From: an uncultured Clostridia bacterium | Lineage (GTDB): Bacteria; Bacillota; Clostridia; Oscillospirales; Acutalibacteraceae | Assembly: GCA_947364045.1 (NCBI GenBank) | Contig: CANARN010000002.1 | Location: 1 to 64,000, forward strand | Length of the DNA stretch: 64,000 nucleotides | Direction of reading: 5' to 3' | Part shown: positions 18,413 through 54,091 of the stretch, piece by piece | Layout of the letters: each line of letters begins with the position of its first letter | How positions within the stretch are numbered: position 1 is the first letter of the stretch | The notes under the pieces: model-generated | Database searches by the model: none | What the model saw: the letters and a program-made list of their open reading frames with translations, nothing else | What the model was told of the DNA's origin: nothing | Translations under genes and position numbers: made by a program

Positions 18413-18441
18413 TTGACAAATTTTGAATAAAGGCTGATAAT
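18413..18441 (+). promoter_or_regulatory. mgtE promoter
   Basis: TTGACA (18413-18418) and GATAAT (18436-18441) with a 17-base spacer. It lies about 240 bases before the mgtE ATG, leaving a long transcribed leader. A second -10-like TATAAT at 18471 lacks a well-placed -35. Confidence 0.7.
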
Positions 18442-18504
18442 ATATGTATATTGTTTTCAGCTTGTGCTGTTATAATATGTTGAAAATGAATTTGTACAGT
18501 ATTT

Positions 18505-18540
18505 AATTGCACTTTTGCGTTTGGCAATTGTGCGTTTTTT
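18505..18540 (+). terminator. Terminator-like hairpin in the mgtE leader
   Basis: AATTGC (18505-18510) can pair with GCAATT (18524-18529), or GCAC (18509-18512) with GTGC (18530-18533) plus TTGC/GCAA inside. Both are followed by GTTTTTT (18534-18540). It lies between promoter and leader ORF and could act as an attenuator; the stem is modest. Confidence 0.45.
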
Positions 18541-18567
18541 CGGATATTTAAAAAAGAGGTGAGAATT

Positions 18568-18636
18568 GTGGACGCGTCCGGAAGTACATCAGTGAAACCC
18601 CCGAGTATTAACTGCGGATTTGTTCCGCAATTCTGA
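18568..18636 (+). CDS. Putative 22-codon mgtE leader peptide
   Basis: A short ORF begins with GTG at 18568, six bases after a good AGAGGTG ribosome site, and ends with TGA at 18634-18636. The peptide would read (M)DASGSTSVKPPSINCGFV, then PQF. It has an early acidic residue and a Lys-Pro-Pro motif at codons 10-12. Proline/acidic-rich leader peptides upstream of Mg2+ transporter genes, such as mgtL in enterobacteria, sense low Mg2+ through ribosome destabilisation; that precedent plus the overlapping RNA hairpin suggests a similar role here. The ORF overlaps the 5' arm of the hairpin at 18591-18655. Expression is not shown by sequence alone. Confidence 0.55.
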   Translation: MDASGSTSVKPPSINCGFVPQF

Positions 18637-18680
18637 ATACTCACTGTGTTTCACTCTATTATTTTTCAAAGGGAGTGAAA
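18591..18680 (+). promoter_or_regulatory. Mutually exclusive hairpins controlling the mgtE ribosome site
   Basis: Hairpin 1 stacks three stems: AGTGAAAC (18591-18598)/GTTTCACT (18648-18655), GAGTATT (18603-18609)/AATACTC (18636-18642), and TGCGGA (18613-18618)/TCCGCA (18624-18629). The same 3' arm TTTCACT (18649-18655) is also complementary to AGTGAAA at 18674-18680, which overlaps the end of the mgtE ribosome site AAAGGGAG (18668-18675). The two pairings exclude each other, and the 5' arm of hairpin 1 lies inside the leader ORF. No M-box consensus is present. Confidence 0.6.
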
Positions 18681-18683
18681 ACT

Positions 18684-20039
18684 ATGACTGAAATGTTTGA
18701 AGCAGTTGTTGAGAACATTAAAGACCTTCTGCACTCAAAAAATTGGGCAAAGCTTAAAATCATTCTTGAAGATATGAACGAGCAGGACATTGCCGAGCTG
18801 TTTATGGAGCTTGAGGAGCGTGACCTTACTTTAATTTACAGGCTTCTTCCCAAAGAGCTTGCTGCAGAGGTTTTTGTTAATATGGAGCCTGAGTATCAGG
18901 AAGCGCTTATCCGCGCTTTTTCCGACTCTGAGCTTCGAGAAGTGCTTGACGAGCTTTATATTGACGACGCTGTTGATATGATTGAGGAAATGCCCGCAAC
19001 ACTTGTAAAACGAATATTAAAGCATACCGACCCCGAAATGCGCAAGAGCATAAATGAAATTCTGCGTTATCCCGAAGACTCGGCAGGCAGTATTATGACC
19101 ACCGAGTACGTTGACCTCAAACGTAATATGACCGTTTCGGACGCATTTACCCGTATTCGCAGAACAGGCGTTGACAAAGAAACGATTTATACCTGTTACG
19201 TTACAGACAGCAAGCGAAAGCTTAAGGGTGTTGTTACCGCAAAGGACCTTTTACTTTCTGATGAGAACGATTTGATTCGTGATATTATGGAAACAAATGT
19301 TATTTCTGTTTCCACGGTTGAGGATAAAGAAAAGGTTGCAGACATCTTCCAAAAGTACGATTTTCTTGCCCTTCCCGTTGTCGACGGCGAGGAAAGACTT
19401 GTAGGAATTGTTACTGTTGACGACGCTATCGACGTTTTGCAGGAGGAAACGACTGAGGATATTGAAAAAATGGCGGCTATTACGCCTACCGATAAGCCGT
19501 ACCTAAAAATGAGCGTTTTTGAAACCTATAAAAAGCGTATACCGTGGCTTATGCTTTTGATGGTGTCCGCAACCTTTACGGAGAAAATTATAAATCATTT
19601 TGAGGGTGCGCTGACAGCCTGTGTGGCGCTTACGGCATTTATCCCGATGCTGACAGGTACTTGCGGCAATTGCGGGGCGCAGTCCTCCGCAACAATAATC
19701 CGAGGAATGTCATTGGGCGACATTCAGTTCAGAGATACCTTTAAGGTTATAATGAAAGAAATGATGATAGCGCTGGCTTGCGGCTTCACACTTGCGTGCG
19801 TTAATTTTGCAAAGCTTATGATTTTTGACGATGTAGGCGTATTTGTGGCATTGGCAGTCAGCGTTACAATGCTGATGGCGGTTGTATTCGCAAAGGTTGT
19901 CGGCTCAATTCTTCCCGTATTTGCCAAAAAAATCGGCTTTGACCCGGCAGTTATGTCAAGTCCGTTTATTTCAACTATTGTTGACGCAGTAACTCTTTTA
20001 ATTTATTTTACCATCGCAAGCGCGATTCTGAAGCTGTAA
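18684..20039 (+). CDS. mgtE: Magnesium transporter MgtE
   Basis: 451-residue Mg2+ channel of the MgtE family. Domain order: N-terminal superhelical domain (about residues 10-130, with EELDxLYIDDAVDMIEEMP-like repeats), tandem CBS domains (about 135-255, PEDSAGSIMTTEYVDL and VVDGEERLVGIVTVDDAIDV), plug helix, then five transmembrane helices with the pore region ALTAFIPMLTGTCGNCGAQS and DPAVMSSPFISTIVDAV. Both cytosolic domains are known to bind Mg2+ and gate the channel. ATG 18684 follows GGGAG; the in-frame GTG nine bases earlier lies inside that site. Its long leader suggests additional expression control. Confidence 0.96.
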   Translation: MTEMFEAVVENIKDLLHSKNWAKLKIILEDMNEQDIAELFMELEERDLTLIYRLLPKELAAEVFVNMEPEYQEALIRAFSDSELREVLDELYIDDAVDMIEEMPATLVKRILKHTDPEMRKSINEILRYPEDSAGSIMTTEYVDLKRNMTVSDAFTRIRRTGVDKETIYTCYVTDSKRKLKGVVTAKDLLLSDENDLIRDIMETNVISVSTVEDKEKVADIFQKYDFLALPVVDGEERLVGIVTVDDAIDVLQEETTEDIEKMAAITPTDKPYLKMSVFETYKKRIPWLMLLMVSATFTEKIINHFEGALTACVALTAFIPMLTGTCGNCGAQSSATIIRGMSLGDIQFRDTFKVIMKEMMIALACGFTLACVNFAKLMIFDDVGVFVALAVSVTMLMAVVFAKVVGSILPVFAKKIGFDPAVMSSPFISTIVDAVTLLIYFTIASAILKL

Positions 20040-39632: not shown

Positions 39633-39661
39633 TTGACATACGTAAGATAGTGTGTTAATAT
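39633..39661 (+). promoter_or_regulatory. Promoter of the rplJ-rplL unit
   Basis: TTGACA (39633-39638) and TAATAT (39656-39661) with a 17-base spacer, 12 bases after rplA. It drives the L10 leader. Confidence 0.8.
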
Positions 39662-39667
39662 AATATT

Positions 39668-39783
39668 CGCTTGCCGAAGACAGTAGGTGCATTTTGCGTA
39701 AAGGGTTTCCCTGCCTACCGAGGAAAAGAACTTATTTTCATTGAAGTTTTGAGCCTCTCTGTCTTTCAGCAGAGAGGTTTTTT
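39668..39783 (+). ncRNA. Ribosomal protein L10 leader
   Basis: Contains the conserved core CCGAAGACAGTAGGTGC (from 39673) and CCTGCCTACCGAGG (39710-39723), whose GTAGG/CCTAC arms pair. An intrinsic attenuator CCTCTCTG (39754-39761) / CAGAGAGG (39770-39777) followed by TTTTTT comes next. This matches the L10 leader family, which binds L10(L12)4 to limit rplJL expression. Confidence 0.92.
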
Positions 39784-39827
39784 ATCTCATAAAGCAAGCG
39801 TAATTAAAATTTAGGAGGTGAATTCGT

Positions 39828-53813: not shown

Positions 53814-53837
53814 ACGAATAATTAAACACAAAAGCTA

Positions 53838-54091
53838 TGATAAGAAACAGTAAGCATCTCGGATTTTCAGAGAGAGGGCGGTTGGTGCGAGTCCTTATGA
53901 AAAAGATGCCGAACCCCCCTTTGAGCTGTGGGCTGAAATAACAGTAAGCCTTACCGGGTTCTCCCGTTACAGAGATACGGCATCGGTTTTTCCTGTGCCT
54001 GAAAGTGCGGATTGTATCTGAATTTAGGTGGTACCGCGGACTTGAAAGTAGTTCGCCCTAAGCTAATGTAATATTGGCTTAGGGCTTTTTT
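53838..54091 (+). promoter_or_regulatory. T-box leader (proline) upstream of proS
   Basis: Stem I begins GATAAGAAACAGTAAGCATC and includes the AGAGAG region and a GGTTGGTGCGAG apical part. The T-box sequence AGGTGGTACCGCGG lies at 54026-54039. The terminator GCCCTAAGC (54055-54063) / GCTTAGGGC (54077-54085) plus TTTTTT follows. The likely specifier is the proline codon CCG at 53909-53911, though adjacent CCC leaves some doubt. Confidence 0.93.

Follow-up and report, generated by a model that had tools for sequence, protein, structure and literature searches.

A leader open reading frame upstream of clostridial mgtE as a candidate ribosome-read switch between two competing RNA pairings

Leader peptides of enterobacteria and a mycobacterial leader offer the closest described parallels to the element analysed here, a short open reading frame (ORF) that precedes the Mg2+ transporter gene mgtE in DNA of an uncultured Clostridia bacterium (contig CANARN010000002.1 of assembly GCA_947364045.1, positions 1 to 64,000; this whole 64,000-nucleotide stretch is hereafter called the window). 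The mgtQ leader of Salmonella, located before mgtB, is a short ORF of 8 codons with a strong Shine-Dalgarno (SD) sequence and an aspartate at codon 2, and it lies inside an operon (PMC8092293). Alternative stem-loops formed over the ORF by four segments (1:2/3:4 versus 2:3) mask or free the transporter ribosome site, such that control is translational, and destabilisation of the ribosome early in the ORF has been proposed to favour the open form (PMC8092293). Loss of the mgtQ start codon is reported to lower mgtB (PMC8092293). For mgtL, which precedes mgtA in E. coli and Salmonella and carries acidic and proline residues near its N-terminus, the importer is repressed when the leader is translated in full at ample Mg2+ and induced when ribosomes are lost early at low Mg2+, by way of Rho-dependent termination and an EPDP motif (PMC11282234). 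Finally, the pe20 leader of M. tuberculosis consists of an M-box followed by short ORFs, including the upstream ORF rv1805A, with anti-SD and anti-anti-SD pairing, and its M-box is reported to control the upstream ORF directly (PMC12810186).

The window derives from a 2.0 Mb draft genome of 85 contigs (G000), and all features given below lie on its forward strand. Its leader ORF (18568-18636), identified from the sequence and from its conservation in the genus, has 22 codons with a GTG start, encodes MDASGSTSVKPPSINCGFVPQF and follows the SD sequence GAGGTGA (18556-18562). Lys-Pro-Pro (KPP) occupies codons 10-12. Within the ORF lies a 5' arm, AGTGAAAC (18591-18598), and downstream of the ORF lies a 3' arm, GTTTCACT (18648-18655), both assigned from duplexes and fold. 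The 3' arm is an anti-SD segment shared by two predicted helices, being complementary both to AGTGAAAC, its partner in what we call the ON fold, and to the AGTGAAA that overlaps the mgtE SD. The mgtE SD itself (18670-18675) and this AGTGAAA make up a region (18670-18680, from sequence and fold) that is masked in the OFF fold. In plain letters, AGTGAAA is present at 18591-18597 and 18674-18680, and TTTCACT at 18649-18655. The presumed regulated gene, mgtE (18684-20039, ATG at 18684), matches NCBIfam model TIGR00400 with an E value of 2e-142, and its product is 97% and 96% identical to the MgtE proteins of Ruminococcaceae UBA7217 and UBA3329.

We propose, with a probability of about 0.5, that this leader is a switch in which the position of the ribosome chooses the pairing, with mgtE off during normal translation of the leader and likely on at low Mg2+. 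The anti-SD segment would have two alternative partners, leader codons 8-14, in which case the ribosome site of mgtE is left open (ON), or that ribosome site itself (OFF). With ample Mg2+, ribosomes would proceed to a slow step and wait there on the 5' arm, and mgtE would stay masked. When Mg2+ is low, ribosome complexes early in the leader, which carry a short nascent chain that includes the conserved Asp2, might be less stable and would be lost or delayed early, whereupon the 5' arm could pair with the anti-SD segment and mgtE could be translated. In most relatives of the genus an upstream M-box would add transcriptional control, and in the window lineage the aptamer would be gone. We regard the existence of the switch architecture as very likely, and the proposed direction and connection with Mg2+ as likely.

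As the original prediction held, the arrangement resembles enterobacterial Mg2+ leaders, and mgtQ is the nearest analogue. A short ORF with a strong SD sequence and Asp2 stands before a Mg2+ transporter gene, and alternative stem-loops over the ORF are predicted by sequence and computation to mask or free the transporter ribosome site at the level of translation. Unlike mgtQ, the leaders described here encode 21-45 residues, carry the anti-anti-SD arm inside the ORF, mostly place Pro-Pro or CGA codons on that arm and mostly precede mgtE, often with an M-box further upstream. The pair of acidic codons (2 and 5) that impede translation of mgtQ is not matched in the window, which has Asp2 only, whereas relatives that begin with MDADS have two. 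We speak of a leader that may work like mgtQ, with no claim of common descent. With mgtL the leader would share repression by full translation and induction by early ribosome loss, together with acidic and proline residues close to the N-terminus, but a pairing that masks the ribosome site would take the place of Rho-dependent termination, and EPDP is absent in the window, although D/E-P-x-P-P occurs in some relatives. In contrast to pe20, the leader brings an alternative pairing of its own and is kept where no M-box is present. No mgtE leader peptide was reported in the open-access literature searched, a scope outside of which fall preprints and most subscription journals.

Evidence for two competing pairings comes from comparing many loci. 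Duplex energies were computed for 72 leaders, both between the ORF arm and the downstream segment (arm:arm) and between the downstream segment and the SD region (arm:SD), and a representative set of 49 leaders with less than 75% identity was used for statistics. Relative to dinucleotide shuffles, the mean z was -2.2 for arm:arm and -1.2 for arm:SD (Wilcoxon p 4e-13 and 4e-9). When partners were swapped between loci, own duplexes beat foreign ones (Kolmogorov-Smirnov p 6e-11 for arm:arm and 1.5e-7 for arm:SD), with own-pair mean rank fractions of 0.21/0.16 and 0.25/0.28, respectively, where chance is 0.5; shared base composition could inflate this test and is controlled for by the shuffles. At least 4 nucleotides of the downstream segment are common to both duplexes in 46 of the 49 leaders. 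We relied on own-versus-foreign and shuffle tests instead of covariation within a clade because the arms drift between clades: in helices drawn at 28 chosen loci of the 72 (such as L018, L055, L065, L087 and L103), the layout is constant and the sequences are clade-specific, as in TTTCACT:AGTGAAA, TTTGTTTCC:GGGAAACAAA, CCTTGC:GCAAGG and others. The original suggestion that TTTCACT can pair with either AGTGAAA has thus held up, since both helices fold for the window RNA and the pairings exceed foreign and shuffle controls. On this sequence evidence we interpret the element as an anti-SD arm with two partners, of which it can pair with one at a time, both pairings being kept with differing sequences.

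The leader is closely associated with genes for Mg2+ transport. An MgtE match is present in 35 of 39 genomes of the genus, our own genome included, and in all 35 the upstream regions carry a leader ORF at the same place before mgtE. Codon 2 is acidic in 34 of these 35 leaders (28 Asp and 2 Glu among the first 30, and 4 of the other five). Named genomes supplied 80 mgtE loci, of which 11 repeated genus loci and were dropped, and among the remaining 69 an ORF finder that required an SD match, Asp, Ser, Asn, Glu or Lys at codon 2 and a distance of no more than 500 nucleotides upstream reported a leader ORF in 42. Beyond the first residues, an alignment of 45 leader peptides is poor, and the C-terminal half is variable. 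We note separately that three Lachnospiraceae loci (L079, L096 and L098) have a different, more acidic leader-like ORF before mgtE (MEYEPKQDIDYHLC.., MEHDAKQDIDYHLC..).

A search that took no account of neighbouring genes gave a sharper result. The pattern consisted of an SD tail GTGA, 2-10 free bases and then ATG GAY GCN GGN AGY as codons 1-5, and it was applied to 295 genomes from the order. It returned 28 rows representing 27 places in 27 of the genomes, and the reversed control returned none. All 27 places lie upstream of a Mg2+ transporter gene, namely 25 mgtE genes detected by tblastn and two genes for MgtA-type P-type ATPases (L121 and L137), whose best NCBIfam models are magnesium-translocating, both proteins being fragments under the full-length cut-offs. 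These places support a link to Mg2+ transport. A looser pattern run at class level matched 18 of 391 genomes, with 2 matches in its control; five of the 18 precede mgtE (L139, L140, L148, L153 and L154, of which L148 is the same place as L123 from the order-level search), and the other 13 resemble background. By these surveys, the leader appears mainly in Clostridia of the window's order. Among side observations, L139 and L140, which are outside the order, have a related but distinct leader before mgtE that begins MDADSSRLCIF.. and has CGA at codon 7. At L121 (1380-2070), the mgtA-type ATPase gene follows an apparent M-box end and two tandem leader-like ORFs, of which the second is MESGSKRSPEPDGRHRS.. 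and the first is like the leader family at its start only.

The codons of the leaders offer a candidate for a step that would hold the ribosome on the 5' arm. The rare codon CGA makes up 48 of the 69 arginine codons in leader codons 1-16, compared with 4 of 59 later in the leaders and 38 of 880 in mgtE of the same loci (p 2e-40); in 29 long frames of the window the count is 40 of 580. Either CGA or Pro-Pro is present in codons 10-15 of 42 of the 49 leaders (CGA in 36, Pro-Pro in 9), versus 41 of 3652 six-codon windows of mgtE. A second set, consisting of the pattern leaders, which were selected by codons 1-5 alone, gave 24 of 27 versus 32 of 1885 mgtE windows. In the window, this position is taken by the Pro-Pro of codons 11-12 (18598-18603), which the codon counts mark as a putative slow step. 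The original prediction proposed to look for conserved KPP codons; in most relatives the position holds Pro-Pro or CGA, with Pro-Pro itself in 9 of the 49 leaders. Between codons 5 and 16, CGA shows an in-frame excess (48:14:9 for the three frames), and CGA in codons 10-16 is preceded in 31 of 38 cases by a Gly or Pro codon, with all four third bases represented; the codon after it is AGT in 15 cases and varies in the rest. Given the in-frame placement and the varied flanking codons, a plain RNA motif is a poor explanation.

In Salmonella, the slowest codon pairs include Pro-Pro and those containing rare Arg codons, and CGA is slower than CGU and CGC (PMC4046918). Among 30 of the 32 tRNA matches of our own draft genome, the tRNA-Arg anticodons are CCG, ACG and CCT, which would leave the decoding of CGA to the ACG (inosine) tRNA. 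A candidate slow step at codons 10-15, where a waiting ribosome is computed to cover the 5' arm, can be seen in the sequence, and its function is a testable inference.

To explore the consequences of ribosome position, a footprint of 31 nucleotides was blocked at one leader codon after another, and for each position we computed how much energy opening of the mgtE start region would take. Over the 49 leaders, the mean opening energy was 7.9 kcal/mol for the empty RNA, 7.3 with a ribosome at codon 1, 10.3-11.0 at codons 5-15 and 6.8-7.2 from codon 21 on. A ribosome at codon 11 raised the energy above that of the empty RNA by more than 1 kcal/mol in 37 of the 49 leaders and lowered it by more than 1 in one. 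The difference between codon 7 and the empty RNA was +3.2 kcal/mol in real sequences versus +0.2 in 294 shuffles (p 3.5e-14). For the window, the values were 8.2 when empty, 5.6 at codon 1 and 5.0 at codon 3. Sixteen window-like leaders averaged 8.4 when empty, 6.1-6.2 at codons 1-3 and 8.3-9.6 at codons 5-11, and the other 14 leaders of the genus averaged 8.7 when empty, 8.9 at codon 1 and 12.0-12.5 at codons 5-13. The minimum fold of the window RNA is ON with the ribosome at codon 3 or 19 and has the mgtE arm paired with the ribosome at codon 1, 7, 11, 12 or 22. In the predicted ground-state OFF fold, a fold computed for the window alone, the leader start region (18562-18572) pairs with 18624-18634.

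Therefore, the predicted direction is that a ribosome in mid-ORF turns mgtE off and a ribosome held or lost early turns it on. Because the empty window RNA is OFF and a ribosome at codons 1-3 cuts the opening energy, removal of the leader start codon is predicted to lower mgtE in the window. These computations do not support the original prediction as it stood. It had supposed that a ribosome-free leader frees the mgtE site, but the empty window RNA folds OFF and its opening energy (8.2) exceeds the values at codons 1 and 3 (5.6 and 5.0). Nor does leaving at KPP by itself switch the gene on in this model, in which the 5' arm lies under a ribosome that waits at KPP and the RNA takes the OFF fold.

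Most mgtE-bearing members of the genus combine the leader with a second Mg2+ element. The M-box (ykoK) riboswitch (RF00380) is found in 28 of the 39 genus genomes, and 27 of the 35 genomes with mgtE have it upstream of both leader and mgtE; the eight that lack an M-box all keep the leader. Covariance-model searches gave no M-box match above the gathering score in the window, as originally noted, or in our own genome, but that absence does not extend to the genus, and the comparison points to a local loss in the window lineage and some of its kin rather than a rule. Our own genome has a single MgtE match, no CorA match and no MgtA above the cut-off, and with the M-box also missing, we found no Mg2+-related control element in it other than the leader. 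No Rfam 15 family covers the leader, the best match (E 0.35) overlapping its 3' arm at a score far under the gathering value, and 18 of the 30 genus loci compared with Rfam yielded 15 M-boxes, one ZTP and nothing else.

The region upstream of the window's leader is consistent with such a loss. A sigma-70-type promoter, TTGACA-17-GATAAT (18413-18441), matches the consensus at 11 of 12 positions, and the same exact pattern is present in four of five M-box-less relatives checked (L002, L003, L007 and L014, not L015). Between promoter and leader (18445-18541) there is a stem-loop and a terminator-like hairpin but no M-box, and L002 and L003 have a comparable stretch. The terminator-like hairpin of the original prediction (18505-18540) does exist with its T-run, but it is imperfect and is not among the two terminator-like sites given by the terminator scan. 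Since it aligns with the region where L004 and L008 have their M-box terminators, it is likely what remains of an M-box expression platform after loss of the aptamer. The promoter, the GTG ORF with its ribosome site, the KPP codons and the arms all lie where the original prediction had placed them, as confirmed by direct reading. Two further stems enclosed between the arms have 5' sides GAGTATT (18603-18609, partner 18636-18642) and TGCGGA (18613-18618, partner 18624-18629). We considered and rejected the resulting three-stem hairpin as an intrinsic terminator: it has no T-run directly 3' of the stem, and the terminator scan called none there. Elsewhere in the window we observed a T-box leader (53828-54063) and a ribosomal protein L10 leader (39656-39792).

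Despite the evidence in favour of a ribosome-read switch, a considerable number of observations weigh against it. With regard to conservation, the ORF finder gave no leader at 27 of the 69 further loci; three of the 27 have less than 500 nucleotides upstream, and several, judged by eye, have nothing but an M-box-like aptamer with a terminator (L043, L045-L047, L049, L053, L054, L056, L070, L084 and L108). The codon 2 tally over the 49 leaders (42 Asp and 2 Glu) is biased because the finder required Asp, Ser, Asn, Glu or Lys there. The G017 leader has Gly2, and the G036 leader (L161) is frameshifted after codon 3 with its arms kept, from either assembly error or decay. The window leader itself has one acidic residue, Asp2, and EE or DE on its own showed no EttA effect in E. 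coli reporters (PMC11282234). As to pairing, individual p values of 0.05 or lower were reached by 28 of the 49 leaders for arm:arm and by 16 for arm:SD. An alignment of 13 of the 16 window-clade leaders (L003, L006 and L015 were left out) has 79% of cells paired in helix 1, 89% in helix 2 (89.4%, with three of seven pairs double-changed) and 98% in helix 3 (98.4%, with one of five counted pairs double-changed), the four double-changed pairs including none in helix 1. Two of the eight pairs of helix 1, the ON-fold helix, fail in 9 and 10 of the 13 sequences, and the arm:SD register shifts between sequences. The covariation score of the three stems was reached by 12 of 500 shuffles and the number of pair types by 263 of 500. 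Comparison of relatives has upheld the ORF and both pairings, but stem covariation within the clade is modest.

The slow step and the folds add to these objections. Neither CGA nor Pro-Pro is present at codons 10-15 in seven of the 49 leaders, and CGA often lies within the 5' arm itself, which leaves room for a constraint from pairing. Four CGA codons left reporter output unreduced in B. subtilis (PMC10454642), and CGA may therefore not be slow in Firmicutes. The ground state of the isolated window RNA is OFF (-41.7 versus -37.1 kcal/mol for ON), a preference of 4.6 kcal/mol for the masked fold, and the ON state would therefore depend on a ribosome early in the leader or on folding while the RNA is being transcribed. 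Even when the ribosome is at codon 1, the minimum fold of the window still masks the site, and it is the opening energy alone that drops. Across the 49 leaders, codon 1 is lower than empty by more than 1 kcal/mol in 19, within 1 in 17 and higher by more than 1 in 13. Since the window folds ON with a ribosome at codon 19 (and OFF at 22), a wait near the end of the ORF could also open the mgtE site.

It is appropriate to ask whether other mechanisms could account for these data. If the peptide acted in the manner of mgtL, ribosomes would leave at acidic or proline codons at low Mg2+, and an untranslated leader would be on by default through hairpin 1. The window does have Asp2 and KPP, and a D/E-P-x-P-P-R motif in L020, L021 and L030 recalls mgtL; moreover, with empty RNA more open than codon 1 in 13 of the 49 leaders and alike in 17, an ON state of the empty RNA is conceivable in part of the family. 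We nevertheless consider this unlikely, as the empty window RNA folds OFF, a ribosome at KPP covers the 5' arm with the computed fold OFF and 13 of the 49 leaders, L103 and L107 among them, lack proline throughout codons 1-16. The strong placement of Pro-Pro and CGA could instead suggest a starvation attenuator, in which the slow Pro codons or the Arg codon CGA respond to the supply of charged tRNA-Pro or tRNA-Arg, elongation factor P or tRNA inosine, and Mg2+ is not the direct signal. There is precedent in Salmonella mgtP, which senses proline (PMC3641672). CGA would presumably depend on the ACG (inosine) tRNA. That two different residues occupy one and the same place speaks for slowness rather than one tRNA, codons 10-15 usually hold one CGA and no run of control codons, and a ribosome there is computed to be OFF, so that starvation would turn Mg2+ import off; such an attenuator seems to us quite unlikely.

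Another view would make the ORF a passenger, with the hairpins themselves sensing Mg2+ or another ligand. The complementarities are kept and the C-terminal half of the peptide is not, G036 keeps its arms despite the frameshift and the lack of a fitting Rfam family leaves room for an undescribed RNA. Translation is indicated by the SD sequence, start codon and Asp2, by in-frame CGA (48:14:9), by the Gly or Pro codons that precede CGA with any of the four third bases (31 of 38) and by Pro-Pro lying in an unpaired loop with a third-base change, and these make a device of RNA alone distinctly improbable. The recurrent N-terminus MDAGS, which is partly a selection effect of the finder, might also be taken to mean that the leader peptide is a small protein acting in trans on MgtE or the ribosome. 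Such a role is highly improbable given the variable length (21-45 residues) and C-terminus, the codon-level constraints on AGT and CGA and the frameshifted member G036.

Returning to the switch in which ribosome position chooses the pairing, we can tentatively imagine a more specific version, possible but at present doubtful, that amounts to a magnesium fuse widespread in Firmicutes. The ribosome would be the sensor, parked at Pro-Pro or CGA on top of the anti-anti-SD arm, with a nascent chain of 10-14 residues, while mgtE is off. Low Mg2+ would dismantle the parked or approaching complex, the arm would be freed and the transporter would be made. This device might work beneath the M-box and could replace it, as in the window lineage.

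In the literature searched, ribosome-read Mg2+ leader peptides are enterobacterial (mgtL and mgtQ), and Mg2+ control in B. subtilis is represented by the M-box. The placement of Pro-Pro and CGA provides a concrete, testable mark of a programmed ribosome wait, and the identity of the CGA codon can be separated from the peptide sequence. If our proposal is true, these Clostridia would possess a separate Mg2+ leader that is often stacked under an M-box and is able to stand without one.

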